Below are positions 47,505 through 63,326 of a stretch of 64,000 nt of DNA, piece after piece. Within the stretch, counting starts at the first letter, position 1. Every line of letters starts with the position of its first letter. The notes below the pieces were generated by a model that worked only from the letters and a program-made list of their open reading frames with translations, was not told where the DNA came from and searched no databases. This stretch comes from Williamsia soli. GTDB taxonomy: Bacteria; Actinomycetota; Actinomycetes; Mycobacteriales; Mycobacteriaceae. The stretch spans positions 186,001 to 250,000 of the forward strand of contig NZ_JAFRDR010000007.1 in assembly GCF_017377795.1 (NCBI RefSeq). The letters are read 5' to 3'. The position numbers were made by a program, and so were the translations under genes.

Positions 47505-50063
47505 TCAGCCGTTCAACAGACGCGCACATCGGAGCAGGCCGATGTGGCTGTAGGCCTGCGGGTGATTGCCCAGGGCCCGTTCGGCGACCGGATCGTACTC
47601 CTCTGACAGCAATCCGGTCGGCCCGGTGGCTTTCACCATCTGATCGAACAGGGCCTCGGCGTCGCCGCGACGATCGATCAACAGGTAGGACTCGATGAGC
47701 CAGGCCGCGCAGAGGTGGAAGCCGCCCTCGCCGCCGGGCAACCCGTCGTCGTGGTGGTAACGGTAGACCGTTGAACCGCTGCGCAATTCGGCCTCGGTGG
47801 CGTTGACCGTGGCGGTGAAGCGGGGGTCGGACGGGTCGATCAGTCCGGCCAGCCCGATGTGCAGGGTCGCAGCGTCGAGATCCACCCCCTCATAAGCTGC
47901 GGTGTAGGAGTTGGCCTTGTCGTTCCAGCCCTGCTTGAGGACCTGCCGCGCGATGGTGTCGCGCAGGACAGACCAGCCCAATTCGGTCTCGCGGTCGAAC
48001 TCGGCACCGAGCTTGAGCGCGCGATCTACCGTCATCCAGCACATCACCTTGGAGTACACGTGATGCCGTGGGTTACCGCGGATCTCCCAGATGCCGTGGT
48101 CGGGCTCGGTCCAGCGGCGTTCGACGGCGTAGACCATGTCGCGCACCAGGTCCCAGTCCGCATCTGACAGTGGCGTCGGATCACCTGCCGCCTTGCGTGC
48201 ATGCGAGAGCGTCGAGATGAGGTCGACGATCGGCCCGAACACGTCGAGCTGAACCTGCTGATTGGCGGCGTTGCCGACGCGCACCGGCCGGGAGCCCGCG
48301 TATCCGGGCAGGGAGTCGATCACGGCCTCAGGCGGAAGGCCGGTGCCGGCAAGGGTGTAGAGCGGGTGCAGCCATTCGGGTCCACTGAGCGTGCCCAGCA
48401 CCTGATGGAGCCAGCTCAGGTAGCCTTCGGCCTCGCTGTAGGAACCGACCGAGACCAGCGCCGACGCGGTCAATGCGGCATCGCGCAACCAGCAGTAGCG
48501 GTAGTCCCAGTTGCGGACGCCGCCGATCTCCTCGGGCAGCGACGTCGTCGCGGCGGCCATGATCGATCCCGTGTCGGCGTGCACGAGACCGCGCAGCGTC
48601 AACGCCGACCGTTTCATCAGGTCGCGTTTGATACCGGGTAGATCCAGCGTCTTCGCCCAGTCACTCCAGTAGGCCTCGGCCTCGGCGCGACGTTCGTGTT
48701 CCGGTGGCTGATGGATGTCGAGATCCTCGGTGCCGCACCGCAGCTCGAGAATGATCTCACCGGCCGATGGATCGACGGTTGCGGTGGCGGTCTGGTGATG
48801 GCGGTCGCTCTCGATCTCCCAGGTGATGCCAGGGGCCCGCAGCACCAGCGGTTCGTTGGAGCCGTAGATCCGCAGTCCGTCGTCGAAGGTCTCGATGCGG
48901 ACGGCAGCCTGCCCGAACTCCGGACGAGGCGCGAAGCGGATCTTCGCCGCCACCTCACCGCGGATGACGCGGGTCAGATCGGTGCGGCCCACCGGGACGT
49001 CGTGCGGTAGGTAGTCGGTGACCTCGAGTCCGGCCCAGCGGGTGCGGACGGTCATCGTGCTGTCGATGTATCGCTGGCTCAACGGCAGCGGGGTGGCCTT
49101 GCCCTCCTCGACCAGTGGGCCGATCGCGAACTCGCCGGCCTCGTCGGTACCGAGCAGACTGCCGAACAGTGCAGCGGAGTCGGGTTCGGGATGGCACATC
49201 CAGCAGACCTTGGCGTCGGGGGTGACCAACGCGACAGTGCGCGGGGAGGCGAGCATCGTCAGCCGCTCGATCGGGACCGCAGCGCCACCGCGCAGCCAAT
49301 TGCGGCGTTCTTCGACCAGGAACGCGAGTGCGGTGGCGACCTGCTCGGTGTCGTCGACCCGGTAGGTCGCCAGGGTGTCGCCCTCGCCGACCTTGACGCC
49401 GAAATCGGGTCCGTGCAGTCGGCGGAACGCTTTTTCGTCGGTGACATCGTCGCCGAAGAAGATCGCGGCGCTGGCACCGGCCTCATGGCGCAGGATGTCG
49501 AGCGCCTGCCCTTTGTCGGTGACGATGACGGCGAGTTCGATGACCGATTTGCCTTCGGTGACCTGCACACCTTCCCAGGTGGCCGGCCCGATCCGGACGC
49601 GGTGCAGCGCGGCGTCGCCGTCGGTGGTCGACGCGTTCCGGAAGTGCAGCACGGTGCTCGCCGGCTTGGTCTCGACCATCACGTTTTCGTAGTCGGCGGC
49701 GATTGCGCGCAGTTCCACGACCAGGGTCTCGAGCAGTTCGGTGGCGGCCGGGGTGATCTCGTGGACGAACCCGACGTCGAACTCACTGCCGTGGCTGCCC
49801 ACCAGGTGCACTTCGGCGGGCAGTCGGGACAGGGTGGCGAGGTCGCGCAACGCGCGGCCGGAGATGACGGCCGCGGTGGTGGAATCGAGTTCGGCGAGGG
49901 CGCGCATCGCCCGCACAGAATCGCCGTTGGGCCGGGCGTCTTCCGGGCGGGACACGATGGGCGCCATGCAGCCGTCGTAGTCCGAGGCGACCAACAGCCT
50001 GGGCATACGTGCGATTGCTTTGAGGGCGCGCCGCAGTTCCGGGACGAGGTCTTGTGCACTCAC
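47505..50063 (-). CDS. Trehalose-6-phosphate phosphatase fused to GH15 glucoamylase/trehalase
   Basis: 852 aa with two enzymes in one chain. Residues ~20-255: HAD-type OtsB with D28/D30 in SDYDGCMAP and FFGDDVTDEKAF. Residues ~260-850: GH15 with GGVRNWDYRYCWLRDAAL, GIWEIRGNPRHHVYSK and the catalytic glutamate segment LLSEEYDP. The first domain makes trehalose from trehalose-6-phosphate; mycobacterial relatives of the second are trehalases, so the fusion could hydrolyse its own product or act on another glucan. OtsB-GH15 fusions occur in related actinobacteria. The GTG is 6 nt after TAGACT (complement of 50070-50075). OtsA lies upstream. Confidence 0.9.
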   Translation of the reverse strand: MSAQDLVPELRRALKAIARMPRLLVASDYDGCMAPIVSRPEDARPNGDSVRAMRALAELDSTTAAVISGRALRDLATLSRLPAEVHLVGSHGSEFDVGFVHEITPAATELLETLVVELRAIAADYENVMVETKPASTVLHFRNASTTDGDAALHRVRIGPATWEGVQVTEGKSVIELAVIVTDKGQALDILRHEAGASAAIFFGDDVTDEKAFRRLHGPDFGVKVGEGDTLATYRVDDTEQVATALAFLVEERRNWLRGGAAVPIERLTMLASPRTVALVTPDAKVCWMCHPEPDSAALFGSLLGTDEAGEFAIGPLVEEGKATPLPLSQRYIDSTMTVRTRWAGLEVTDYLPHDVPVGRTDLTRVIRGEVAAKIRFAPRPEFGQAAVRIETFDDGLRIYGSNEPLVLRAPGITWEIESDRHHQTATATVDPSAGEIILELRCGTEDLDIHQPPEHERRAEAEAYWSDWAKTLDLPGIKRDLMKRSALTLRGLVHADTGSIMAAATTSLPEEIGGVRNWDYRYCWLRDAALTASALVSVGSYSEAEGYLSWLHQVLGTLSGPEWLHPLYTLAGTGLPPEAVIDSLPGYAGSRPVRVGNAANQQVQLDVFGPIVDLISTLSHARKAAGDPTPLSDADWDLVRDMVYAVERRWTEPDHGIWEIRGNPRHHVYSKVMCWMTVDRALKLGAEFDRETELGWSVLRDTIARQVLKQGWNDKANSYTAAYEGVDLDAATLHIGLAGLIDPSDPRFTATVNATEAELRSGSTVYRYHHDDGLPGGEGGFHLCAAWLIESYLLIDRRGDAEALFDQMVKATGPTGLLSEEYDPVAERALGNHPQAYSHIGLLRCARLLNG

Positions 50064-50188
50064 TACGCGAGTCTAAGACCGCCCACCCCAGCGGCGTCCA
50101 ATCAGCGCCGCCCGGGGGGACGAATTGACGTGTTCGTCACAGTTGCTCGAGCAGATCTGGTGGATCTGCGATCGCCCGGGCCGCCGAC

Positions 50189-51670
50189 TCAGATGACGTC
50201 GAGGCTGCGATTGCCGCTGGGCATGGTGTCGGTGTCTGCGCCGAGCGCTCCGAGAAAACTCTTCGCCCAGCGTTGCACGTCGTGCGTGAGCACCTGCCGC
50301 CGCAACGCGCGCATCCGCCGCTTGCCCTCTTCCGGATCTTGCTCGAGGGCAGCCAGGATGGCTTCTTTGACGCCATCGGTGTCATAGGGGTTCGCCTGGA
50401 AGGCCTGACGCAATTCAGCTGCGGCGCCGGTGAACTCGCTCAGCACCAGCGCACCGCCGAGATCGCTGCGACAGGCGACGTACTCCTTGGCGACCAGATT
50501 CATCCCGTCGCGCAGGGGCGTGACCAACATGACGTCCGCCGCGACGTAGAACGAGACGAGTTCGTCGCGGGGCACACCATGGTGCAGGTACTGGACGACC
50601 GGATGCCCGACCCGCCCGAAGTTGCCGTTGATGTTGCCCACGAGTTGCTCGATGTCTCCGCGCATCTTGATGTAGCTCTCGACGCGTTCGCGGCTCGGGG
50701 TCGCGAGCTGGATCATCGTGATCTCGTCGGGATTGATCCGGCCCTCTTCGAGGAGTTCGGAGAGGGCGTTCAGGCGGACGTCGATGCCCTTGGTGTAGTC
50801 GAGGCGGTCGACACCGAGCAGGATCTTCTTCGGGTTGCCGAGTTCTGCGCGCATGTCCGTCGCGCGCCTACGGATCTCCCTGGACTTCGCCCGGTTGTCG
50901 AGTTCGCCGGAGTCGATGGAGATGGGGAACGCGCCGACGCGGACGGTGCGGAACCCGACCTGCACGACACCGAACTTCGCGCGGACCCCGACCTGTCCTT
51001 TGGATGTGGCCTGGCCCGCGAGCCGCCGCGCGAGGTACAGGAAGTTCTGCGCGCCGCCGGGCAGGTGAAATCCGATGAGGTCGGCTCCGAGGAGGCCTTC
51101 GATGATCTCGGTGCGCCAGGGCATCTGCATGAAGAGTTCGACCGGCGGGAACGGTATGTGCAGGAAGAAGCCGATCTTCAGGTCTGGCCGCAGCATCCGG
51201 AGCATCTTGGGGACGAGCTGGAGCTGGTAATCCTGAATCCACACCACGGCGCCTTCGGCGGCGGCCTCCGATGCGGCTTCGGCGAAGCGGCGGTTGATCG
51301 CGACGTAGCTGTTCCACCAGGAACGGTTGTACTCGGGCTTGACGATCACGTCGTGATAGAGCGGCCACAGGGTCGCGTTCGAGAAGCCCTCGTAATAGTC
51401 CGCGATCTCCTGGGTGGACAACGACACCGCGAAGAGCTGTATGTCGTCGACTTCGGGATGCTCAGCGGCGTCGGGGACGCCTGACCATCCGACCCAGGCG
51501 CCGGTCTGCGATCGCAGCACCGGTTCGAGTGCGGTGACCAGGCCTCCGGGGCTGCGCTTCCAGCGAACAGAGCCGTCGGGGAGGGTCTCCTTGTCGACGG
51601 GGAGTCGGTTGGCGACGACGACGAAGTCGGCGCGGTTGTCTGACTTTTTCTTCGTTCGCGAGGGCGCCAC
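50189..51670 (-). CDS. otsA: Trehalose-6-phosphate synthase
   Basis: 493-aa GT20 retaining glycosyltransferase joining UDP- or ADP-glucose to glucose-6-phosphate. [11 protein letters not shown], the WVGWSG loop, [24 protein letters not shown] and [16 protein letters not shown] are all present. Trehalose is both an osmoprotectant and the carrier of mycolates in this order. The GTG at 51670 lies 3 nt after the stop of a 56-aa gene, so the two are one unit. Followed on the same strand by the OtsB-GH15 gene with its own promoter. Confidence 0.95.
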
Positions 51671-51673
51671 GAA

Positions 51674-51844
51674 TCAGGCTTCGTCCGGCGCGATACCCAG
51701 CATCGAGAACAACATGCGGCATTCGTCGGCGTCGACGGCGTACGCGGCGACGACGCGACGAGCCGACGTAGCGGTCTCGTCAGCCACGGGTTCCAGGTCT
51801 TCGTCGTCAGTGATGTCAGTTTTGTCGCTGGTCTTGGCAGGCAT
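51674..51844 (-). CDS. Small 56-aa protein encoded just upstream of otsA
   Basis: Short gene: MPAKTSDKTDITDDEDLEPV, then an amphipathic C-terminal helix ending DADECRMLFSMLGIAPDEA. The N-terminal half is acidic and probably disordered. The ATG at 51844 lies 7 nt after TATCAT on the minus strand, the best -10 hexamer in the window; an in-frame ATG at 51853 overlaps it. The stop is 3 nt from the otsA GTG, implying co-transcription and probable coupling. It could be a small regulator or partner of OtsA. Not recognised as a known family. Confidence 0.65.
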   Translation of the reverse strand: MPAKTSDKTDITDDEDLEPVADETATSARRVVAAYAVDADECRMLFSMLGIAPDEA

Positions 51845-51869
51845 GGCGAACATGATACCTGCGCCGAGG

Positions 51870-53381
51870 TCACCCCTCGGAAAGACCGGGGCGCAGGTCC
51901 ATCTCGCGGAACGGCTCGGTCACAGCGTCGGGATCGCCTTCGGGATCGGTCGTCATGCGACCGGGCCGGATGGCCGAGCGGGCGGTGAACAGAGCTCTGG
52001 TCGGACGGGTCGAGATACGCGGACGTCGCAGCGTACGGGCGATGAACTCACCGAGGGTCACCCCGGCGGCCAGGGAGCAGCCGACACCGATCGCCGATCC
52101 GATCGCGGTCAGGCCCTCGATCGTCTGCTGACTGAGGAGTCCGTAGAGGCCGCGATAGATCGCCAGACCGGGCAGAAGCGGTGTGATCCCTGCGACGGCC
52201 ACGACCAGCGGCGGCGTCAGCGCGCGGCGGGCGAGTAGACCACCGACGAGGCCGACCATCGCGGCGGCGATGCCTGCGGAGATGACGGGTCCGACGGTGA
52301 AGTGGTTGGCCACGGAGACGATCGCCGCACCCATCGCGCCGCCGAAGAAGGCGGTCGGGAGCGCTCGGGTCTCGGCGTAACTCGCCAGCGCGAACGCGGC
52401 GGCGGCCAGACCGCCGGCGATCACCCGGGCCGGTGTGGTCGCGAGATCGAACGACGTCGTCGAGGTGATGGTGGGCAGGAAGATGCCGGTGGCCTCCATC
52501 AACGTGATGGCGATACCGACACCACTGATGATGCCGCCGGTCATGATCAGTAGCTCGAAGAACCGCGCGCACCCGGTGATGGGTGCTCCGGTGATGGCGT
52601 CCTGCACCGAGCCGACCAACGAGAGCCCGGACAGCAGCACCACGACACCGGCGGCGATGACCTGGGACGGCATCAGGTCGAGCCCGAGGGATTCCTGGTT
52701 CTGATAGACCACCGCAGCCGGGATGACGGCGATGAAACCGCCCGTCATCTGCTGGAAGAACAGTGGGGTACCGATTTTGTTGAGCAGGCGGTTGGTGCGG
52801 TCGATCACCGCGGTTGTGAGAAACGCGACGACCGCGACGAGCCAGCCACCACCGAGCAACACCGAGAGCGCGGCGGCCATCGACGACCACGCCAGTGTCG
52901 CGACCCAGCGGCGGTACGGGTGGGGTGCGGCGATGATGGCGTCGATCACCTGATGGCCTTCATCGGGGTCGATGGCCAGGTTGCGGATCTTGCGCACAAG
53001 GCGGTCCACCGCGGCGAGCCGGGTGAAGTCGAGCGAGCGGTAGTGGACGGATTTCATCGCGGTGACCGGCGGCATCGCGCCGCCGCGGGTGGCACTGACC
53101 CAGATCGTGTTGTAGGTGACGTCCACCTCACAGTTCTCGACGCCGTAGATGCTCGCCACGAATCTGACCTGTGTCTGCGTGTCGATGGCACCGGTTCCGG
53201 AGTCGAGAAGAACCGCCCCGACCTTGATCGCGAGGTCGAGGACCTCGGTGACTGCCGCGTCGTTGGTGAGGTCGACGGGCTGCCTTGGCGACACCGCCGG
53301 CTCGAACGGCTCGATCGTGTCGATCGTCGCTCGGCGACTGCCGGCGAGGCGCTTACCGAGACTCGCGATATACTCGCGCAC
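51870..53381 (-). CDS. Threonine/serine exporter, ThrE family
   Basis: 503 aa. The N-terminal soluble ThrE domain (VTEVLDLAIKVGAVLLDSGTG; NCEVDVTYNTIWVS) is followed by about ten hydrophobic helices in two groups, as in single-chain Corynebacterium ThrE. It exports threonine and serine using the proton motive force. The GTG at 53381 is 8 nt from the 5' end of the divergent tRNA-Thr gene, and its Shine-Dalgarno AAGGAGG is the complement of the tRNA acceptor end. An internal start is possible if the promoter cannot lie inside the tRNA gene. Confidence 0.9.
   Translation of the reverse strand: MREYIASLGKRLAGSRRATIDTIEPFEPAVSPRQPVDLTNDAAVTEVLDLAIKVGAVLLDSGTGAIDTQTQVRFVASIYGVENCEVDVTYNTIWVSATRGGAMPPVTAMKSVHYRSLDFTRLAAVDRLVRKIRNLAIDPDEGHQVIDAIIAAPHPYRRWVATLAWSSMAAALSVLLGGGWLVAVVAFLTTAVIDRTNRLLNKIGTPLFFQQMTGGFIAVIPAAVVYQNQESLGLDLMPSQVIAAGVVVLLSGLSLVGSVQDAITGAPITGCARFFELLIMTGGIISGVGIAITLMEATGIFLPTITSTTSFDLATTPARVIAGGLAAAAFALASYAETRALPTAFFGGAMGAAIVSVANHFTVGPVISAGIAAAMVGLVGGLLARRALTPPLVVAVAGITPLLPGLAIYRGLYGLLSQQTIEGLTAIGSAIGVGCSLAAGVTLGEFIARTLRRPRISTRPTRALFTARSAIRPGRMTTDPEGDPDAVTEPFREMDLRPGLSEG
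53369..53374 (+). promoter_or_regulatory. -10 element of tRNA-Thr gene
   Basis: TATACT, ending 14 nt before the mature tRNA 5' end, within the first codons of the divergent exporter gene. The -35 is not clear. Confidence 0.45.
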
Positions 53382-53388
53382 GCAGTTT

Positions 53389-53460
53389 GCCTCCTTAGCT
53401 CAGTGGTAGAGCACTCGCCTTGTAAGCGAGCGGTCGTCAGTTCAATCCTGACAGGGGGCT
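53389..53460 (+). tRNA. tRNA-Thr (anticodon TGT)
   Basis: A 72-nt cloverleaf without encoded CCA. Acceptor GCCTCCT pairs with AGGGGGC; D-arm is GCTC-AGTGGTA-GAGC; the anticodon stem CTCGC/GCGAG encloses CTTGTAA with anticodon TGT; the T-arm is GTCAG-TTCAATC-CTGAC. The discriminator is T. It reads ACA codons, which are rare in this GC-rich genome. It lies head-to-head with the threonine/serine exporter gene. Confidence 0.95.
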
Positions 53461-53622
53461 CCGAGATTTCGACCGTCCGCAGATGCACCCCGTGTGCAGC
53501 GTAGGAGTCATTGTTGGGGGTTTCAACGTGCCTCCCGACACGCCTGAGTTCACCGCCGATTGCTAGGTTGACCGGTGCGGTCGCCGGTCGGCGCCGCACC
53601 CCGCTCCTCGGAGGTCTCTCGC

Positions 53623-54861
53623 GTGAAATCGCCGGTCCCTGATTACCTGCGTGAGGTCCTCGACGGCCTCGTCGACGACCGTGACGGTGCAGTCGCCGAT
53701 TACATACCGGATCTCGCGAACGCGAACCCCGACGTCTTCGGTGTCGCGATGACGACGGTGGACGGCCGGACCCACGCGGCGGGCGACGACGAGGTGGAGT
53801 TCTCCATCCAGTCCATCTCGAAACCGTTCGCCTACGCCGCAGCACTCACCGACCGCGGCTTCGACACCGTGCTGAACACCGTCGGCGTCGAACCGTCGGG
53901 GGAGGCGTTCAACGAGTTGTCCCTCGAGGGCGATTCGTGTCGGCCGAAGAACCCGATGATCAACGCAGGCGCCATCGCGACCCATTTCCTGCTGCTGAAG
54001 TCTGGTGCGAGTGTGACGGACCGCGTCGATCGCGCCCTGGAGTTCTTCTCCGAGCTGGCCGATCGCACGCTGTCGATCGACGAGTCGGTGTGCCGCTCCG
54101 AACTCGACACCGCCGACCGTAATCTCTCGATCGCCCACATGCTCCGCAACTACGGCGTCATCGACGTCGACGCCCATGACGTGGTCGAGGGGTACACCAG
54201 GCAGTGCTCCATCAAGGTGACCGTCCGGGACCTCGCGGTCATGGGCGCGACCCTGGCCAACGCCGGGGTCCACCCGGTGACCGGACGCCGGGTGGTGGCC
54301 ACCGATGTGGCCCGCCAGACGCTGGCGGTGATGACCGGCTGCGGTATGTACGACGCCGCGGGCCACTGGCTCACCACGGTCGGTATCCCGGCGAAAAGTG
54401 GTGTGGCAGGTGGTCTTCTGGGGGCTCTGCCCGGCCAACTCGGTATCGGGGTCGTCTCCCCGCGGCTCGACGCGCACGGCAACAGCGTGCGCGGGGTGAA
54501 AATGTTTCAGCGGATGTCGGCTGACATGGGCATGCATCTGATGGACGCCGAACCCTACGGATCCACCGTGCTGCGCAGTGTCCGCCGCGATTCCGACGAG
54601 CTCGTGTTCGAACTGCAGGGCGTCGTCCAGTTCACCGGCGCCGAGACAGTGCTCGATGCCTTGGAGCTCGACGAATCAGACGCGAATACAGTTGTTTTCG
54701 ACCTGAACCGGGTCGACCGGCTCAGCGATGTCGGCAGGCGGATGGTGCTGGAGGGTATGCGCCGCGTCCGCCTCGACGGCCGCGAGGTGGTTCTCATCGA
54801 CCGCGACGGTGTTTTGCCCGATGCGGACCTCGGCGACGGGACCTATCCACAGACCCGGTGA
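53623..54861 (+). CDS. glsA: Glutaminase with C-terminal STAS domain
   Basis: 412 aa. The N-terminal serine-dependent glutaminase (about 1-300) has the S64-x-x-K67 motif in FSIQSISKPF, plus KNPMINAGAI and GVAGGLLGALPGQ. It hydrolyses glutamine to glutamate and ammonia. A C-terminal STAS-like domain (FELQGVVQFTGAETVLDAL; TVVFDLNRVDRLSDVGRR) is a regulatory add-on found in some actinobacterial GlsA proteins. The GTG at 53623 has GGAGG 9 nt upstream; an upstream GTG (53575) lacks one. Confidence 0.92.
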   Translation: MKSPVPDYLREVLDGLVDDRDGAVADYIPDLANANPDVFGVAMTTVDGRTHAAGDDEVEFSIQSISKPFAYAAALTDRGFDTVLNTVGVEPSGEAFNELSLEGDSCRPKNPMINAGAIATHFLLLKSGASVTDRVDRALEFFSELADRTLSIDESVCRSELDTADRNLSIAHMLRNYGVIDVDAHDVVEGYTRQCSIKVTVRDLAVMGATLANAGVHPVTGRRVVATDVARQTLAVMTGCGMYDAAGHWLTTVGIPAKSGVAGGLLGALPGQLGIGVVSPRLDAHGNSVRGVKMFQRMSADMGMHLMDAEPYGSTVLRSVRRDSDELVFELQGVVQFTGAETVLDALELDESDANTVVFDLNRVDRLSDVGRRMVLEGMRRVRLDGREVVLIDRDGVLPDADLGDGTYPQTR

Positions 54862-54879
54862 GGGCCGGGTGTGCGTCGA

Positions 54880-55371
54880 TCAGGTCGCGGTCGGAAAAAC
54901 CCTCTGCGACATGACCGGGGCGAACCAGAGCCGCGACATGTCCATCGAGTCGGTCCGTTTGGCGTCGGTCGGTACGAGGCCGTGGTCCACACCGCCGGGT
55001 GACCAGTGGTCGTGAAGGTCCTCTGCGGCGAAGATGAACGGCAGCCAGTCGGTCATCTCGTCAGCCCGGGTGAATCCGCCTGCGATCGCCCACTCGACGT
55101 TCTCGGTGCTGTAGGTGAAGAAGTGGTCGCCGTAGGTGGGGCTCACACCGTCGCCGATGAGCGCGGTCAGCACGAACCACTCCGTTGCCTCGAGCACTTC
55201 CGGGGTGGCCAGGTGCTGGGCCAGGGCGTAGTGGCTGTCGATGGAGGCCACCGCGAGTTTTTCGTCGTAGTAGACCTCTGAGTGGCTGATCTCGGGTCCC
55301 GTCCCGACGCGGGCGTGATCGGGCATGCCGAGAACGAAGTACGCGCTGCGCGGTGTCACTGCGGGTCCCAT
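54880..55371 (-). CDS. Conserved hypothetical protein (163 aa)
   Basis: Not recognised. Begins MGPAVTPRSAYFVLGMPDHA, contains SHSEVYYDEKLAVASIDSHYALAQHL, TYSTENVEWAIAGGFTRADEM and ends SRLWFAPVMSQRVFP. Soluble, moderately acidic, no signal peptide. ATG 55371 is preferred because it lies 6 nt after CACAAT, a plausible -10; GTG 55386 is in frame. Convergent with glsA with an 18-nt gap. Confidence 0.68.
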   Translation of the reverse strand: MGPAVTPRSAYFVLGMPDHARVGTGPEISHSEVYYDEKLAVASIDSHYALAQHLATPEVLEATEWFVLTALIGDGVSPTYGDHFFTYSTENVEWAIAGGFTRADEMTDWLPFIFAAEDLHDHWSPGGVDHGLVPTDAKRTDSMDMSRLWFAPVMSQRVFPTAT

Positions 55372-55458
55372 GGACGCATTGTGCACCCGAAGTGGTCTGC
55401 GCGTCGGCGGGCCGCGCGGGTCGTCGGCGGGGAGATCGCGGAACGATACGATGACGCC

Positions 55459-55845
55459 ATGTCATCTGTGCAGATCAATGGGGATCAGGGCGGCCACACG
55501 CGGAGCGCTACAGTCCCGCCGGGAACGCTCATCTTCACCGCGGGAGCCGCGCCGATCGACGCCGACGGGCAGACGGTCTACCCGGGTGACGTGAGCAGAC
55601 AGGCCGCTCAGTGCATGGCCAATCTGTCCGCAGCCGTCGAAGAGGCCGGGGCGTCGCTCGACGATGTCGTGAAGGTGACGGTGTTCGTCGCCGAGAATCT
55701 CCAGGCAGATCTGAGCGTCGCGTGGGACGTGGTGACCGAGGCGTTCGGTGCGCACAAACCGGCAGGGTCACTGCTCGGTGTGACGGTGCTGGCCTATGAC
55801 GATCAGCTCGTGGAGATCGAGGCCGTGGCGGTCGTTCCCGCCTGA
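55459..55845 (+). CDS. RidA/YjgF/Rid family protein
   Basis: 128 aa of the YjgF/YER057c/UK114 fold (GTLIFTAGAAPIDADG; QAAQCMANLSAAVEEAGASLDDVVKVTVFV). True RidA enzymes keep an Arg in the IPR(S/V)... or RVEIEA segment for 2-aminoacrylate binding; here the end reads LVEIEAVAVVPA with no such Arg, so it may belong to another Rid subfamily. The ATG at 55459 is 6 nt after TACGAT (55447-55452). The next gene starts inside its stop (TGATG). Confidence 0.85.
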   Translation: MSSVQINGDQGGHTRSATVPPGTLIFTAGAAPIDADGQTVYPGDVSRQAAQCMANLSAAVEEAGASLDDVVKVTVFVAENLQADLSVAWDVVTEAFGAHKPAGSLLGVTVLAYDDQLVEIEAVAVVPA

Positions 55846-57026
55846 TGGGCCGCCTGGCGATCAGTACCGAGCAGCGGCGCGCGCGTTTGCTGCGCCGTCA
55901 TGGATTGGTCCCCGAGACGTATGCCCAGACGGCTGAGGGGGTCGCCGACGCGGTCGTCGGCCTGCACGCCACCACCGCCTCGACGGTGTACCTGTCGACC
56001 TGGGCCCGGATGGGATCGTTCGACATCCCCGAGCTCGATCGCGCGCTCTATGTCGACCGCACTCTCGTCAAGCAACTCGCGATGCGTCGCACCCTCTTCG
56101 TCTTCGGCAGGCCTGCCCTCGCCGACGCCGTCAGCGCGGTGGGTACGAGGGTGGCCGCCAGTGAACGCACCAACATGCTGCGCGATCTGCGGCGCAGTGA
56201 CGACTTCCCCGATCCGGAAGGCTGGATCGAGACCGCGCGCGAGGCCGTCACCGGGGCTCTGACCGGCGGCAGGACCGCGTCGTCGACAGAGCTGCGCAAG
56301 GAACTGCCCGCCCTGGAGGGCGTCATCCGGCACGGTGAGGGCAAAGCCTGGTCGGGCGTCGCGGGGATGGGTCCGCGGGTCCTCAGTCACATGTGCGCCG
56401 GCGGGACCATCGTGCGGGGTCCCAACGACGGGAACTGGCTGCGGTCGCGGCCCAAGTGGTCGTCGATGACCGATTGGCTCGGTGAGCCGCTCCGGATCGA
56501 CGATCCCGAGACCGGACACAGAAACCTGATCCGCCGGTACCTGCAGCGGTTCGGTCCTGCCACCGAAACCGATGTGGTGTGGTGGCTCGGGTCAACGAAA
56601 ACAGCTGTGCGCACCGCCCTTTCGCAGCTCGAAGTGGTCGAGGTGGATCTCGAGGGTGGTCAGCTCGGGTACGTGCTGCCCGACGATCTCGAGCCGGTCG
56701 ATGCGGTGGAACCGGCAGCGCTGGTACTTCCGGAACTGGATCCGACAGTGATGGGCTGGAAGCAGCGCGACTGGTACCTGGGGTCGCACGCTCCGCACCT
56801 GTTCGACAGAAACGGTAACGGTGGGCAGACACTCTGGTGGGACGGACGCATCGTCGGTGGCTGGTATCAGCGGGCCGACGGCTCCATCGGGACGCACTTG
56901 CTGGAGAAGGTGAACCGGGCGGCCACGAAGGCGGTGAAGGTTCGTGCGGAGGAATTGTCGGCGTGGCTGGGAGATCATCGGCCGAAACCCGGGTATCCGG
57001 CGCCGTTCCTCAAAGACTTCACTTAG
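55845..57026 (+). CDS. Winged-helix DNA-binding domain protein (HTH_42/AlkZ-like)
   Basis: 393 aa of the family containing the DNA-crosslink glycosylase AlkZ (YcaQ). It begins RRARLLRRHGL with GVADAVVGLHATTASTVYLS, and has later winged-helix segments (RYLQRFGPATETDVVWWLG; VLPELDPTVMGW). The Q-x-D/Q catalytic motif of AlkZ is not evident, so repair activity is uncertain; many actinobacterial members are uncharacterised. The start overlaps the RidA stop by one base. Ends just before the PhoP box. Confidence 0.75.
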   Translation: MGRLAISTEQRRARLLRRHGLVPETYAQTAEGVADAVVGLHATTASTVYLSTWARMGSFDIPELDRALYVDRTLVKQLAMRRTLFVFGRPALADAVSAVGTRVAASERTNMLRDLRRSDDFPDPEGWIETAREAVTGALTGGRTASSTELRKELPALEGVIRHGEGKAWSGVAGMGPRVLSHMCAGGTIVRGPNDGNWLRSRPKWSSMTDWLGEPLRIDDPETGHRNLIRRYLQRFGPATETDVVWWLGSTKTAVRTALSQLEVVEVDLEGGQLGYVLPDDLEPVDAVEPAALVLPELDPTVMGWKQRDWYLGSHAPHLFDRNGNGGQTLWWDGRIVGGWYQRADGSIGTHLLEKVNRAATKAVKVRAEELSAWLGDHRPKPGYPAPFLKDFT

Positions 57027-57033
57027 TTCAGGT

Positions 57034-57051
57034 TCACAGGAACCTCCCAGC
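57034..57051 (+). promoter_or_regulatory. PhoP-box-like direct repeat upstream of phoP
   Basis: TCACAGG-AACC-TCCCAGC: two 7-bp repeats with 4-bp spacing, each one base from the PhoP consensus TCACAGC-N4-TCACAGC. It lies 45 nt before the phoP start and just after the preceding gene's stop. This arrangement suggests autoregulation, as described for mycobacterial phoP. Confidence 0.6.
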
Positions 57052-57095
57052 TTGTCGGCAGAATGTGGAGAAGTAGGTCAGGCAAGGTGGGTGGC

Positions 57096-57794
57096 ATGAG
57101 TGATCAGGGTGCCCGCGTGCTGGTTGTCGACGACGAACCGAACATCCGCGAATTGTTGTCGGTGTCGCTGAAGTTCCAGGGCTTCGAGATCCAGACCGCT
57201 GCCGACGGGCCCGCAGCGCTTGATCGCGCACGCACCTTCCGGCCCGACGCGCTCATCCTCGACGTGATGATGCCGGGTATGGACGGGTTCGGGCTCCTGC
57301 GCCGACTGCGTGCAGACGGCGTCGAGGCGCCCGCACTGTTTCTCACCGCCCGGGATTCGTTGGAAGACAAGGTGACCGGCCTGACCATCGGCGGCGATGA
57401 CTACGTCACGAAGCCGTTCAGCCTGGAAGAAGTCGTTGCACGACTGCGGGTGCTGTTGCGACGCGGTGGTTATGGTGACAAGCCGGAGCAGAGCCCACGG
57501 ATCTCGTTTGCCGACATCGAACTCGACGACGACACCCATGAGGTCTGGAAGGACGGCGAACTGGTGTCGCTGTCGCCCACAGAATTCACGCTCCTGCGTT
57601 ACTTCATGATCAACGCGGGCACGGTGCTGTCGAAGCCGAGGATCCTCGACCACGTGTGGAACTACGACTTCGGCGGTGAGGTCAATGTCGTCGAGTCGTA
57701 CGTATCCTACCTGCGGCGCAAGGTCGACACCGGAGACAAACGCCTCATCCACACCCTGCGCGGTGTCGGCTACGTGATGCGCGAGCCCCGATGA
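57096..57794 (+). CDS. phoP: Response regulator PhoP
   Basis: 232-aa OmpR/PhoB-type regulator. The receiver has VLVVDDEPNIRELLSVSLKF, phospho-acceptor D56 in LILDVMMPG, FLTARDS and YVTKPFSLEEVVA. The C-terminal winged helix ends VVESYVSYLRRKVD and HTLRGVGYVMR. Near-identical to M. tuberculosis PhoP over the receiver. PhoP controls envelope lipids, pH and hypoxia responses in mycobacteria. The ATG at 57096 follows a weak AAGGTGG. Overlaps phoR by 4 nt. Confidence 0.95.
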   Translation: MSDQGARVLVVDDEPNIRELLSVSLKFQGFEIQTAADGPAALDRARTFRPDALILDVMMPGMDGFGLLRRLRADGVEAPALFLTARDSLEDKVTGLTIGGDDYVTKPFSLEEVVARLRVLLRRGGYGDKPEQSPRISFADIELDDDTHEVWKDGELVSLSPTEFTLLRYFMINAGTVLSKPRILDHVWNYDFGGEVNVVESYVSYLRRKVDTGDKRLIHTLRGVGYVMREPR

Positions 57795-59251
57795 CCCAGC
57801 TTGCCGCGCCGACGCCCACATCGCCTCGGCGCGGTGTGCCACTGCGGTTTTCGCTGGTGGCCCTGACCCTCGTCCTCGTGATTCTGGGCCTGCTGGTGTC
57901 AGGGGTTGCCGTCACCTCTGCGATGAAGAACAACCTGATGGACCGCACCGACAAGTCGCTGCGAGAGGCATCGGAGAGCTTCGCACGACCGCGGGATCTG
58001 CCGCCTCAAGACATCGGATCCCCGGATGATCAGAACGGTCGTCCGCCGTCGCCGTTCTTCGTGCAGATTCACCGTGCCGACGGCACCGTCATGACGATCA
58101 ACGACGTCGGAGGCGAGCCGGACCTGCGCGACCTCAGTGGTGCGGGCAGCGATCCGGTCACCGTGAACTCGGCGGATGGCGGTGAACCGAGCTGGCGGGT
58201 CATCGAGACGACCTCGCCGTTCGGCACATCGGTCGTCGCGGTGAAACTGACCGACGTCGACGACACCGTCACCCGGCTGATCTGGCTACAGGTCGGTATC
58301 GGTGCCGGAGTGATCCTGTTGGTCGGTGCGCTGGGATATCTGTTGGTACGCACCAGCTTACGGCCGCTGCAGCGGGTCGAGAACACCGCGCAGGAGATCG
58401 CGGCGGGGAATCTCGACCAGCGAGTTCCGCCTGCCGCGGCCAACACCGAGGTCGGCCATCTCGCGGCGTCGCTCAACACGATGTTGCACCAGATCCAGGG
58501 GGCGTTCGCCGCCACCGCCGCATCCGAAGAGCAGGCCCGCCGTTCCGAGGACAACATGCGCCGCTTCGTCGCCGACGCCAGCCACGAACTCCGGACCCCG
58601 CTGACCTCGATCAAGGGCTTCTCCGAGCTCTACCGCCAAGGCGCGATGACCGACGCGAACCAGGTGATGTCGCGAATCGAGACCGAAGCCGGCCGCATGG
58701 GACTGCTGGTCGAGGATCTGCTGATGCTGGCCCGACTCGACGCCCGAAGACCCCTCGAACTGGCGCCGGTCGACCTGCTCGCGCTGGCATCCGAGGTGGC
58801 GCACGGCGCCAAGGCCGCAGCGCCCGAGCGGACCGTGACGATCGATGTCTTCGACGGCCCGGGCATCCCCGAGGTGATGGGCGATGCCGGCCGTCTCGCC
58901 CAGGTGCTGAGCAACCTGATTGGCAACGCCATCCGGCACACCCCCGACGACGCCACGATCACGGTCCGGATCGGCACGGTCGATTCGGATGCGGTGATGT
59001 CGGTGACCGACACCGGCCCGGGACTGAGCGAACAGGACAGGGCCCGGGTGTTCGAACGGTTCTACCGCGCAGACGCATCGCGGCAACGCACAGAAAGTTC
59101 AGCTGGAAGCGGACTCGGGCTGTCGATCGTCGCGGCACTGGTTGCAGCTCACGGCGGCACGGTCGGGGTCGATTCCGAACCTGGCCAAGGTGCGACCTTC
59201 TGGGTGCGGCTACCGCGTGAGGCGGGTCCGCAAGATCAGGTCAGTCGCTGA
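57791..59251 (+). CDS. phoR: Sensor histidine kinase PhoR
   Basis: 486 aa. Two transmembrane helices (LVALTLVLVILGLLVSGVAV; VGIGAGVILLVGALGYLLV) flank a periplasmic sensor of about 120 residues. HAMP follows, then the H-box DASHELRTPLTSIKG with H265, and the N, G1, F and G2 boxes (NLIGNAIRHTP; DTGPGLS; RVFERFYRAD; GSGLGLSIVAAL). Translationally coupled to phoP (ATGA). Ends overlapping the convergent HIT gene by 11 nt. Confidence 0.95.
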   Translation: MTQLAAPTPTSPRRGVPLRFSLVALTLVLVILGLLVSGVAVTSAMKNNLMDRTDKSLREASESFARPRDLPPQDIGSPDDQNGRPPSPFFVQIHRADGTVMTINDVGGEPDLRDLSGAGSDPVTVNSADGGEPSWRVIETTSPFGTSVVAVKLTDVDDTVTRLIWLQVGIGAGVILLVGALGYLLVRTSLRPLQRVENTAQEIAAGNLDQRVPPAAANTEVGHLAASLNTMLHQIQGAFAATAASEEQARRSEDNMRRFVADASHELRTPLTSIKGFSELYRQGAMTDANQVMSRIETEAGRMGLLVEDLLMLARLDARRPLELAPVDLLALASEVAHGAKAAAPERTVTIDVFDGPGIPEVMGDAGRLAQVLSNLIGNAIRHTPDDATITVRIGTVDSDAVMSVTDTGPGLSEQDRARVFERFYRADASRQRTESSAGSGLGLSIVAALVAAHGGTVGVDSEPGQGATFWVRLPREAGPQDQVSR

Positions 59252-59666
59252 CGTACTGCTCGTGGCCCTGCTCGCGTAGCTTCGTGCGGATCTTGTCGGC
59301 GACCGCATCAAGCGCCGCCGGATCGGGATCCTGATCCGCGGTCGCCAGGTCGAAGGTCTCGATCTGCCACGCCGGGAACACGTGAACATGCAGGTGAGGT
59401 ACTTCGAGTCCCGCGATCAGCAAACCCATCCGCGGTGCGTCGAACGCGCTCTTCACAGCCTGACCGACGGTCTGCGCGACGGTGTTGATCTTCGCGAACA
59501 ACGCGGGTTCGACGCTCTCCCAGTGATCGATCTCCTGGCGCGGCACCACGAGCAGGTGCCCATCGGTGACCGGATTGATCGTCAGGAACGAGACGACGTC
59601 GTCGTCCTTCCACACAAACCGTCCGGGGATGTCTCCGTTGATTATCTTTGAGAAAACAGATGCCAT
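59241..59666 (-). CDS. HIT-family protein (Rv0759c-like)
   Basis: 141 aa of the histidine triad nucleotide-binding family: FSKIINGDIPGRFVW, INPVTDGHLLVVPR and the His triad in VPHLHVHVFP. Members hydrolyse nucleotidyl phosphoramidates or adenylates; the physiological substrate is unknown. Gene order phoP-phoR-HIT matches M. tuberculosis. The ATG at 59666 is 7 nt after TATGAT (complement of 59674-59679). Confidence 0.92.
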   Translation of the reverse strand: MASVFSKIINGDIPGRFVWKDDDVVSFLTINPVTDGHLLVVPRQEIDHWESVEPALFAKINTVAQTVGQAVKSAFDAPRMGLLIAGLEVPHLHVHVFPAWQIETFDLATADQDPDPAALDAVADKIRTKLREQGHEQYVSD

Positions 59667-59795
59667 AAGGCGAATCATACGGGTCAGCCTGGAAAACTAT
59701 ACCTCATGGCACTCTGAAACGAACATCCGATCTCCACCGAGACGAGTGTATCTGCCAGCGCAGCCAGTGTGATGAGAGATTGAGAACTCGAAGGT

Positions 59796-59811
59796 AACCT
59801 CATAACCTCAT
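59796..59811 (+). repeat. Tandem AACCTCAT repeat in promoter of NACHT gene
   Basis: Two adjacent 8-bp copies at 59796-59803 and 59804-59811, with a third ACCTCAT at 59701-59707. They precede a possible -10 CATAGT (59809-59814) and the GGGAGGG ribosome site of the NLR-like gene. Possibly a regulator binding site. Confidence 0.4.
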
Positions 59812-59832
59812 AGTTGTCGGGAGGGAACGCAT

Positions 59833-62800
59833 ATGGAGCCAATCGCACTGGCGTTGGGGTCAACAGCGACTAAGTGGGTCTTTCGAATGTGGATGAAGGA
59901 TGAACTTCTCGCTGACTTATCAGGCGACCTTGTCGATGTCGTTCGCGGCCGAATCGGAGACGTGATGGAGGGTCGACGTGCTAGCAGGCAATTTGAACAA
60001 CTCGCCGAACTTATGGCCCAACGACTTCAGCCCTTCATCGATAGCGAGTTCCAGAGCGCAGATCGTGGTGAACGAAGTGCCGCCGCGATAGCGGTCGATA
60101 AAACTCTCGAAATTAGTCTATTGGCCAATCTCGATCCAATTAGTGTCGATCTGGATGCGACTCTTCTCGAACAAGTAATCCGTTCTAACCACCCACGTGG
60201 TGCGAGCGAGGCCCTGCTCGGAGATAGTGGAACAGCGCTTTACGATCTTTTGCTCACGGAGTGCTGCAGTTACATAGTCGCCGCCTGGGGGCGGCTGCCC
60301 GACTTTGGCTCAAGGGCTGCTCGAGAAATGCTGGCGCGTAGCACGCGTCTTCTTGAGATCGGTGAGGCAGTGTTGGACCGGTTGCCGAAGACCCTCCCAG
60401 ACTCCTGGGGTCGGGGGTCTGTTGACGAAATATTCGCCAGTAGATACTTAAAAGCTGTGGTTCAGAAGAATGACAAACTCCAGATCTATGGGGTTCGCGA
60501 CAGCGACTATCAGGCTGCGTATTCATTGTCGGTTGCCTATATTAGTCTGTCAGCGACCATGCCCATGAAACCTAGCCAGAGTAGAATGGCAAGCAAGGCT
60601 GTATCAGGGCCAAATCCTGATGATGATTCGAGTCAACAGCGCGATTCCTCCCGTCACGACGAGGACGGCTTGCGTGTCGAGTCGGCCTTAACGGGCCACC
60701 CTCGATTAATCTTAGGTGGAAACGCAGGATCCGGCAAGACGACTCTCCTTCAATGGATCGCAGTAACGGCCAGTCAAAGTCGATTCAGCGACGAACTCGC
60801 CGGCTGGAATTCAAGCATTCCATTCCTCTTGCCGTTACGGCGGTTCGCCTTGGGGGAGCTTCCGAGGCCCGAAGAATTCGTGGGAGTAAATCATTCACCC
60901 CTTGCAGGAGTGATGCCAGAAGGATGGGTGCATCGGGTCTTGGCAGACGGCCGAGCATTAATACTAATCGATGGTCTCGACGAATTGCCTGAGAGCCAGC
61001 GCTCGAAGGCGCGTGTATGGCTGCTCGATCTAATTGACGCATATCCGGGGTCTCGATACATTGTGACTTCGAGACCGCTTGCGATCTCGCGCGACTGGGC
61101 GGCAGTTAAAGATTTCAAGTATTCTGAGCTTTTGTCGATGCAGCGAGTGGATATACGGGCGTTCGTCTCTCATTGGCATGCGGCCGCTGCGGGTTCTGTT
61201 GATTCGGACGAGGAGAAAGCTCTCGTGCGTATCGCCGAAAATAAAATGCTCGCTGCTGTGGACGATATTCAAATGGTGCGCACCCTTTGTACCTCACCAC
61301 TGCTATGTGCGCTAATTTGCGCCATTCATCGGCAGAATGTGAACAAACTGCCGGAGAATCGAATGGATCTCTACGACACTGCTCTGCAAATGTTGGTTAA
61401 CAATCGCGACGAAGAACGAGACATCAAGGTCCAAAGCATTTCGACACTGAGTTACATGGAGAAAAGGGCTCTGCTTTCAGACTTCGCTCTCTGGCTACAC
61501 GAAAATGGTGCTGCGGACGCGGAGCTGGAACTCTACCGGCACCGGGTGGCAGGAAAGACCCGACAACTCGCGCGGCAGTCCGAACTGGAAGGTGGGCAGG
61601 TTGCGGACCTGATGCTCGCGCGAAGTGGGGTATTGAGAAGTCCGGTAGAGGGGCGCGTTGACTTCGTGCACCGGACCTTTCTCGAGTACTTGGCTGCTGC
61701 TGAGCTGGTGGATGACGAGGCCCTTGGAAAGATCGTCGAACACGCTCATCTTGACCATTGGCGTGAAGTAGTAATCATGTCGGCGGGCCACTTCAGTTCT
61801 AAGAAGCGTGAGGAACTGTTGAACAATCTTGTGCAGCGAGGGAAGCGGGAGCCGATCCACCGTCACCGCCTGTTCCTGCTCGCCGTGGCATGCCTGGAGA
61901 CCTCCGCGGTCTTAAGCGAAAAGGTCCAAGAGCTGCTGGGCACTTGCTTGGACGAAGTTGTGCCTCCGGCCAACATGACCGATGCTGCCTCTGTGGCGTC
62001 AGCTGGCGCCCTCGCAGTTCCGAGGTTAAAGATTGAAAATGGTCGAGCGACGACGGTAGCCGCATGCATACGGGCGTTGTCGCTCATCGGCACAGACGAT
62101 GCACTTGAGGTGCTGAAGACCTACCGCAGGGATAGACGAGTGACTGTCACCCGACAGTTGATCCGCGCTTGGGGTCAGTTCAACAGTGAGACATACGCGC
62201 GGGAAGTACTTGCCGACTCGACTCTCGATAGAGGCTTTATTAGGTTGACTGACCCAGATACCGTGCAATTTTTGTCTAGTATGCAGCACGCCAAGGCCGT
62301 TATGTTGGACTTTCCAGGTAAGTTTGACGACCTCGCGTCGATACCTGCCTCTGATGCCGCGTGGGGTCTTGATGTGTCTTGGGCTACGAAGTTGGATGAC
62401 TTGGTCGATATCAAAAAGTTCCCGAATCTCGCAAGATTGTGGATGTCAAACTCGTCAGTTCGCTCCTTGTCCGGGCTCTCGGCTTGCGAGAAACTGGAGA
62501 TCCTGTATCTCAGTCAATGTTCGGCGCTGTCCAATATTGACGACCTCGCTGATTTTGAACGCTTCGAGCTTATAAATTTGTACAACACCGCAATCCGCGA
62601 TCTGGGGCCCCTTGGGGGAGTTGAAGTTAAGTCGTTAACGGTAGGCGGCCCTCACCTCGAGCACGTCGGCGCAGACCTAAAGGTTCAGGAGCTATCGTTG
62701 ACTGTTAGTCCCAAGCTTGTTGACTTGACTAGGCTATCTGGTGTCGCTGACATGCGCACTCTTAGGATCGTAGTTCTTGGTGACAATGACGATAGCGGCG

Positions 62801-63150
62801 AATTATCTCTAGGCCTGCCGACAGGTCTTGAACGCCTGTCGATTTCGTCTTACATTTCCGCGGGTCGATCGGTCCGATTGTCGGGTGGCGATAATGTTGA
62901 GTCTTTATTCATATCGGCTCCAGTAAAATCTCTACCCGTAATGCCGAAACTGAGAACGCTCGCCCTGTCGACTTCCGGTAATCCATCCTGGCCGGATCTG
63001 AGCGCAACTGATTGGGGCCTATTTCCAGAACTTGTACGCGTCGATATCGCGGGGCCAGGGGCCAGTTCTTGCGTCATTCCAGGATTCTCGCGAAAGGAGG
63101 ACCTGAGGTTTTCGGAGTTCAGCGCTTCGTTTACTCGGACTGAAGCTTAG
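59833..63150 (+). CDS. Bacterial NLR-like protein: NNH1-NACHT-LRR NTPase
   Basis: 1105 aa. Residues ~1-200: a helical domain (GDLVDVVRGRIGDVMEGRR; ALYDLLLTECCSYIVAAWG) matching NACHT N-terminal helical domain 1. ~290-450: NACHT STAND NTPase with Walker A GGNAGSGKTT (K302), Walker B ILIDGLDE (D380, D383, E384) and VTSRP sensor. ~600-625: VDFVHRTFLEYLAA winged-helix signature. ~640-820: helical repeats. ~825-1095: leucine-rich repeats (LARLWMSNSSVRSLSGLSAC). Bacterial NACHT proteins are anti-phage immune receptors; LRRs would sense, NNH1 or oligomerisation would act. GC is lower than the neighbours and TTA codons occur, so it was probably acquired. No partner gene. Confidence 0.88.
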   Translation: MEPIALALGSTATKWVFRMWMKDELLADLSGDLVDVVRGRIGDVMEGRRASRQFEQLAELMAQRLQPFIDSEFQSADRGERSAAAIAVDKTLEISLLANLDPISVDLDATLLEQVIRSNHPRGASEALLGDSGTALYDLLLTECCSYIVAAWGRLPDFGSRAAREMLARSTRLLEIGEAVLDRLPKTLPDSWGRGSVDEIFASRYLKAVVQKNDKLQIYGVRDSDYQAAYSLSVAYISLSATMPMKPSQSRMASKAVSGPNPDDDSSQQRDSSRHDEDGLRVESALTGHPRLILGGNAGSGKTTLLQWIAVTASQSRFSDELAGWNSSIPFLLPLRRFALGELPRPEEFVGVNHSPLAGVMPEGWVHRVLADGRALILIDGLDELPESQRSKARVWLLDLIDAYPGSRYIVTSRPLAISRDWAAVKDFKYSELLSMQRVDIRAFVSHWHAAAAGSVDSDEEKALVRIAENKMLAAVDDIQMVRTLCTSPLLCALICAIHRQNVNKLPENRMDLYDTALQMLVNNRDEERDIKVQSISTLSYMEKRALLSDFALWLHENGAADAELELYRHRVAGKTRQLARQSELEGGQVADLMLARSGVLRSPVEGRVDFVHRTFLEYLAAAELVDDEALGKIVEHAHLDHWREVVIMSAGHFSSKKREELLNNLVQRGKREPIHRHRLFLLAVACLETSAVLSEKVQELLGTCLDEVVPPANMTDAASVASAGALAVPRLKIENGRATTVAACIRALSLIGTDDALEVLKTYRRDRRVTVTRQLIRAWGQFNSETYAREVLADSTLDRGFIRLTDPDTVQFLSSMQHAKAVMLDFPGKFDDLASIPASDAAWGLDVSWATKLDDLVDIKKFPNLARLWMSNSSVRSLSGLSACEKLEILYLSQCSALSNIDDLADFERFELINLYNTAIRDLGPLGGVEVKSLTVGGPHLEHVGADLKVQELSLTVSPKLVDLTRLSGVADMRTLRIVVLGDNDDSGELSLGLPTGLERLSISSYISAGRSVRLSGGDNVESLFISAPVKSLPVMPKLRTLALSTSGNPSWPDLSATDWGLFPELVRVDIAGPGASSCVIPGFSRKEDLRFSEFSASFTRTEA

Positions 63151-63326
63151 GTGATACTGACGATTCGCGAATCAAGCCATTGGTAACTGGTCGGGCGGTC
63201 GAAGTGATTCTTTGATGTGTGGAATAAGTATGTTGAGTAAAGCTGGTGCCCGACTTATTTGGATTCACAGCTTCTTGACAGCCTCGTCGGAGGTGGGTGG
63301 CAGGCGCTGATTCAAGAGTGAGTGCC

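Follow-up and report, generated by a model that had tools for sequence, protein, structure and literature searches.

A solitary NNH1-NACHT-LRR gene inserted in the genome of Williamsia soli, a candidate single-gene bacterial NLR

Introduction

Can one gene, standing apart from any partner, encode a complete immune receptor of a bacterium? This question is raised by an open reading frame (ORF) at positions 59833-63150 of the forward strand in a 64,000-nucleotide stretch of Williamsia soli DNA (contig NZ_JAFRDR010000007.1, positions 186,001 to 250,000), which is called the window below. The original prediction placed this ORF exactly and described its product as a solitary protein with an NNH1 domain, a NACHT domain and leucine-rich repeats (LRRs), an NLR-like receptor brought in by a recent insertion. 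From the analysis reported here, we consider it probable that the gene came in alone by horizontal transfer and encodes a bacterial NLR that is complete in itself, is triggered by phage and disables the infected cell through its NNH1 output.

Domain organization of the protein

The ORF has 1105 codons, begins with ATG and is unbroken, and ORF calling, motif and Pfam searches agree on an intact NNH1-NACHT-LRR gene. All three domains score above the Pfam cut-offs, and the matches are far beyond chance. The N-terminal helical NNH1 domain (PF22733; residues 5-181, 59845-60375, +; E 3e-32) scores 112.6 bits against a cut-off of 27, with profile positions 1-176 of 177 matched, and is the candidate output domain. 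The NACHT NTPase (residues 292-451, 60706-61185, +; E 6.4e-24) scores 85.1 bits against 26.7. The LRR region, the likely sensor, covers residues ~806-1075 (62248-63057, +) according to profiles and is strongest at residues 864-906, where LRR_4 scores 35.1 bits against 27 (E 1e-8). A conserved helical linker (residues 641-805, 61753-62247, +) separates the LRRs from the NACHT module. It is weakly HEAT-like, its HEAT_2 match (E 0.0054, 17.4 bits) being below the cut-off of 27.7.

Bacterial NACHT (bNACHT) proteins are described with an N-terminal effector, a central NACHT module and a C-terminal sensor, and they defend against DNA and RNA phages (PMC12169576). The same paper, citing Kibby et al. 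2023, counts bacterial ORFs in which NACHT modules are joined to leucine-rich repeats as bona fide NLRs of bacteria (PMC12169576). The window protein has this tripartite architecture of signal transduction ATPases with numerous domains (STAND) in common with them (PMC12169576). Judged by its predicted domains, it has the structure by which a bacterial NLR is defined.

Insertion at an empty chromosomal site

The original prediction proposed transfer and suggested comparing the interval across related genomes. In all eight other genomes sampled from the genus, both flanks are present and the gene is absent. The two-component/HIT flank occurs in 9/9 genomes (76-90% identity in the other eight), as does the glycosyltransferase flank (79-94%), and one congener with an empty site has a flank identity of 90%. 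The protein itself, at E 1e-20, was found in one of the nine genomes, the window's own. Alignments to all eight congeners stop at 59666 and restart between 63265 and 63311. The starts of the HIT and glycosyltransferase genes are about 3670 bp apart here, compared with 103-426 bp in the congeners. The ends of the alignable sequence and the drop in GC delimit an acquired segment of ~3.6 kb at 59667-63264, in which no other ORF longer than 123 amino acids is present. Since every sampled congener carries the empty site, and since a single gain explains this with fewer events than eight losses would, horizontal acquisition of a single gene is confirmed.

The length of the interval varies among the eight congeners, so the insertion spot is changeable. 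Insertion by a recognizable mobile element was considered and rejected. No mobile gene, no tRNA at the site and no convincing repeat was found; the window has one detected tRNA, at 53389-53462, and the repeats detected are short, 12-15 nt in two copies. The empty site of the closest congener (locus L063) contains several near-copies of a 30-base unit, GACACAGCTGGTGAGCCGAAGTGCAAACTC, as read from the alignment. The flanking two-component genes had been named phoPR, which is too specific, with no NCBIfam cut-off reached among the best 25 of 88 matches and the best 25 of 82.

The transfer had also been read from base composition and called recent. The composition is as predicted: the gene has a GC content of 0.541 and 12 TTA codons, while 500-base windows over 50000-59499 have 0.62-0.70. 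The three top BLAST relatives (37, 34 and 34% identity) have a GC content of 52.5-55.0%, with 66.5-68.6% in the rest of their loci, and GC is below 58% in the genes of 9 of the 31 NNH1-NACHT proteins examined. Because the closest relatives found are equally AT-rich amid GC-richer surroundings, low GC is no clock and was rejected as a sign of recency. An AT-rich make-up belongs to some lineages of the NNH1-NACHT family wherever they land. What still speaks for a recent event is the absence of the gene from the eight congeners.

The NTPase switch and the repeat region

Conservation was examined in 25 proteins, namely the window protein and 24 of 30 relatives. Walker A, GGNAGSGKTT (residues 295-304, 60715-60744, +), and Walker B, IDGLDE (residues 379-384, 60967-60984, +), are both intact, as expected of a bacterial NACHT protein, and the numbering given earlier for K302 and D383 is correct. 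A third predicted motif, FVHRTFLEYLAA (residues 611-622, 61663-61698, +), is also present and is presumably part of a winged helix. G296, A298, G299, G301, K302, T304, D380, G381, D383, E384, T412, R414 and D610 are invariant in 25/25, and so are F611, H613, F616, E618 and L620 in the third motif. The invariance of these residues favours a working NTPase switch and suggests that the window protein retains one.

The number of repeats is less certain. About ten had been predicted, and this stands in part. A strict count of LxxLx(hydrophobic) in residues 801-1090 gave 4 matches against a shuffle mean of 2.05, which is not above chance (716 of 5000 shuffles reached that count), and profile support from the single protein is concentrated at ~864-945. 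A looser motif gave 14 matches against 9.5 in shuffles and is above them, with 341 of 5000 as high. In addition, the profile of the 25-member family matches internalin-type and other bacterial LRR structures across most of the C-terminal region. C-terminal leucine-rich repeats, which the strict use of the term NLR calls for, are thus found both by LRR_4 and by the internalin match of the family profile. Motif starts picked by hand from the 14 looser matches (866, 888, 911, 932, 951, 974, 999, 1022, 1040 and 1067) would fit about ten units.

The repeats diverge faster than the core. Compared with the 24 relatives, the window protein has a mean identity of 46% in the NTPase. The two regions that follow it reach 36% each, NNH1 29% and the LRRs 18%. 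In five more closely related pairs, selected by hand, NTPase identity is 65-88% and LRR identity 35-70%. Such divergence would be expected of a sensor under changing selection, although drift under weak constraint would give a similar picture.

Distribution and relatives

Counts of genomes with NNH1 include the window's own. The domain was found in 1/301 genomes of the family sample (the window's), 36/397 of the order sample and 9/396 of the phylum sample. The full protein, at E 1e-60 or better, is matched in 32/397 order genomes, its own included, and the best other match has 40% identity. The NNH1 architecture is therefore not unique; about 1 in 11 genomes of the order sample has it. The original prediction had expected something undescribed. 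That does not hold, given that NNH1 is already in Pfam, that it occurs in the order at this frequency and that NACHT-LRR NLRs are in print (PMC12169576). Both NNH1 and NACHT are detected in 25/25 of the aligned family members, and LRR_4 in 13/25. Distant relatives occur in 55 plasmid records at E 1e-10, none of them spanning 80% of the protein.

In a tree, the window protein grouped with five proteins, three from f15 and one each from f16 and f14 (f14, f15, f16 and f18 are arbitrary labels for families in the genome sample, and g107 for a genus). The support of 87/93 is below the star of the tool and the terminal branch of the window protein is long (1.67), so no donor is named. This branch may merely reflect missing close relatives. 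It is also what would be expected of a passing acquisition without function. The frame of 1105 codons is intact and the invariant motif residues of the family are retained, which makes such a fate highly improbable.

The 6.07-Mb host genome has one NNH1 match by Pfam search. A second, distant NACHT protein of 1219 amino acids is encoded in the same genome (L130 3554-7213; G000:C18:30553-34212, minus strand). Its NACHT match of 38.7 bits leaves the first 49 of 167 profile positions unmatched, and neither NNH1 nor LRR is matched.

Tandem NNH1-NACHT genes were observed in two f18/g107 genomes (L125 3782-12885; L126 6626-12535). One has three in a row, with no LRR detected in any; the other has a pair, with weak LRR matches below the Pfam cut-offs in the first gene and none in the second. 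The pair is possibly a sensor with a helper, and paired arrangements may exist elsewhere. The window copy, by comparison, is the sole one in the 301 family genomes.

Genomic neighbourhoods

The prediction that the gene works without a partner was examined in the neighbourhoods of 30 relatives of the 32 loci, where 99 of 119 listed neighbour genes were scanned. No conserved partner gene was found: in the ORF clustering, no neighbour family occurred in more than four loci, although the ORF caller is crude and takes shadow ORFs in GC-rich DNA, so that a small partner gene could be missed. A predicted ORF on the same strand within 30 bp was present in 9 of the 30 loci; these ORFs do not form a single family, and two or more of them are shadows. 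NNH1-NACHT genes mostly stand alone, outside known defence islands. Standing alone favours a self-sufficient protein, and guilt by association lends no support to defence when no known defence islands surround the relatives.

The commonest Pfam family among the scanned neighbours is AhpC-TSA (4 of 99), and Ham1p_like also occurs. Direct search showed that the NNH1-NACHT gene lies between rdgB and an AhpC/TSA peroxiredoxin gene, both housekeeping genes, in 7/37 loci from six genera of f14 (L103, L107, L109, L110, L111, L112 and L120; rdgB adjoins rph). This shared insertion site explains the recurrence of AhpC-TSA. Six of the seven loci split into two groups in the tree (rows L042/L046 and L048-L051) and the seventh is outside it, and repeated use of the site is possible. 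For L103, L109 and L111 a conserved downstream partner was rejected, as the mutually similar ORFs are shadows antisense to rdgB; in L103 and L111 we take the antisense gene to be rdgB from its sequence. In one relative, other than L098:5107-8241, an NNH7 domain protein (E 3.3e-71) is encoded within two genes of the NNH1-NACHT gene.

Isolation from known defence genes would also suit a STAND regulator of development or lysis that has no role in phage defence. TTA codons can tie translation to development in actinomycetes, and the 12 in this gene agree with such a regulator. The sporadic presence in the family sample and the fast divergence of the LRRs suit an accessory sensor better, and we judge the regulator quite unlikely.

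The NNH1 domain as output

NNH1 is likely the output domain. As the original prediction anticipated, its effector is hard to name, with no catalytic signature and no sequence relative in structures. No catalytic-looking invariant cluster was found in NNH1 among the 25 sequences, and the best match among solved structures has E 0.052 over 38 positions. No other Pfam family matches the NNH1 region of the window protein, and in four relatives the extra matches are either weak or due to the first part of NACHT. HeLo, RPW8 and Rx coiled-coil families were not found in the Pfam scan of five NNH1 regions, in which HMMER filters drop most matches above 0.1.

NNH1 could instead be an adaptor, the oligomer calling in a separate executioner protein from another chromosomal locus in the style of CARD and Death domains. 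The lack of a catalytic-looking cluster is in line with this, and helical effector-associated domains elsewhere have been proposed as adaptors, with extra copies that are sometimes distant (PMC7159879, PMC8195603). However, the Pfam search found no second NNH1 protein in the genome for homotypic contact, and no partner recurs near the 30 relatives. Recruitment is possible but comes out on the less likely side, and we slightly prefer direct action of NNH1, perhaps at the membrane.

Membrane attack by the extreme N-terminal helix is described for HeLo and plant RPW8 domains (PMC12881547), and this precedent makes a direct membrane role of NNH1 possible, at a rather low probability. The first ~20 residues of NNH1 are hydrophobic and rich in glycine and alanine, and arginine and lysine follow in many relatives. 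Hydrophobicity was examined in 22 of 31 proteins, nine having been set aside beforehand. The mean Kyte-Doolittle value of the best window in the N-terminal segment is 1.06; control draws give 0.42, and 8% of them attain 1.06 as well. The N-terminal window is the most hydrophobic of residues 1-288 in 7 of the 22 proteins, and in the window protein 14 other windows exceed it. We judge the stretch to be less hydrophobic than a transmembrane helix.

A more specific and rather unlikely version is a one-gene 'resistosome', in which LRR sensing would open a NACHT wheel and the first helix of NNH1 would enter the membrane. Sensor, switch and killer would then lie in one polypeptide with a ZAR1-like build, to which NNH1 has no detected sequence relation.

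Comparison with known systems

Assignment to a known defence system by library was rejected, since PADLOC and NCBIfam matches are weak or partial. EruA (NF058535) and Avs2 of AVAST type 2 (NF041813) both have a cut-off of 1000, and the window protein scores 22 and 9 bits, respectively, over part of the NTPase region. DS-8, a NACHT protein with a metallophosphatase domain, was reported to be defensive in a 2026 study (PMC13092281); the window protein scores 8.9 bits against the cut-off of 790.

Individual bNACHT proteins differ at either end. bNACHT25 and bNACHT32 have a PD-(D/E)XK nuclease and an NCH1 domain and bNACHT02 and bNACHT12 a short C-terminal domain (PMC12169576), where the window protein has NNH1 and LRRs. 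CARD-NLR systems and LypABC resemble the window protein in having an NLR-like ATPase and, within the system, a signalling domain that is a helical bundle, but they are multi-gene systems with peptidase components (PMC13236601), and the inserted segment contains no such gene. Instead of the adjacent peptidase and death-effector genes of a CARD-NLR system, two-component, HIT and glycosyltransferase genes flank the segment. The plant ZAR1 resistosome and fungal HeLo NLRs combine a helical N-terminus with an NTPase in one chain, as here (PMC12881547). They differ in that no such family appeared in Pfam scans of NNH1 regions. The ZAR1 chain also carries LRRs.

The nearest kin are the NNH1-NACHT(-LRR) proteins of Actinomycetota (PF22733), whose domains come in the same order and which are 28-35% identical to the window protein where aligned. 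In the open-licence literature, we found no tested function of an NNH1-NACHT protein, and NNH1 and NACHT are named together only in unrelated work. The words NACHT, NLR and Avs are absent from the main text of a survey of antiviral systems in Actinobacteria (PMC10482375). The window protein is thus an ordinary member of a known architecture whose output domain is unexplained.

A phage-triggered mechanism

Phage defence is the reading that we infer to fit the window protein best, and several observations weigh against it. Phage records had no match at E 1e-5, and viral contigs gave one distant match, to the NACHT region only, with 22% identity. PADLOC gave three weak partial matches to the window protein (best E 0.0018). 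Among the 25 members it matched PDC-S60 in 6 (best E 8e-9) and mad8 in 7 (best 1.1e-7), and among the 99 neighbours two models each matched a single gene at E 1e-8 or better. No NNH1-LRR protein is among those tested in the available text of PMC12169576. The linker at residues 241-284 is as divergent as the LRRs (16% mean identity), so divergence by itself is no mark of a sensor. To these are added the missing catalytic cluster and structural relatives of NNH1.

By analogy with STAND and NLR biology, phage-triggered defence would proceed as follows. In the resting protein, the ATPase would be kept closed by the LRR solenoid together with the helical region that follows NACHT. The fast-diverging LRRs would recognize an infection cue, for which a phage protein or a host protein perturbed by phage is the likeliest candidate. 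Oligomerization and clustering of the NNH1 domains would then follow from ATP exchange in NACHT, and the output of these domains would disable the infected cell and stop the spread of phage. The closed state, the oligomer, the cell-disabling output and the phage target are all modelled on that biology.

Other features of the locus

A Shine-Dalgarno-like GGAGGG, read from the sequence, is located 7 nt 5' of the ATG (59820-59825, +). Promoter and terminator scans gave results close to chance (3 vs 2.3 and 4 vs 3.0), and no Rfam family reached its gathering score.

Conclusions

NNH1-NACHT genes are accessory and mostly solitary in the sampled actinobacteria. With its single gene and a relative that has the empty site, this compact system offers a convenient test bed for the role of NNH domains. 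The same system suits the question of whether bacterial LRRs sense phage as the LRRs of animals and plants sense pathogens.

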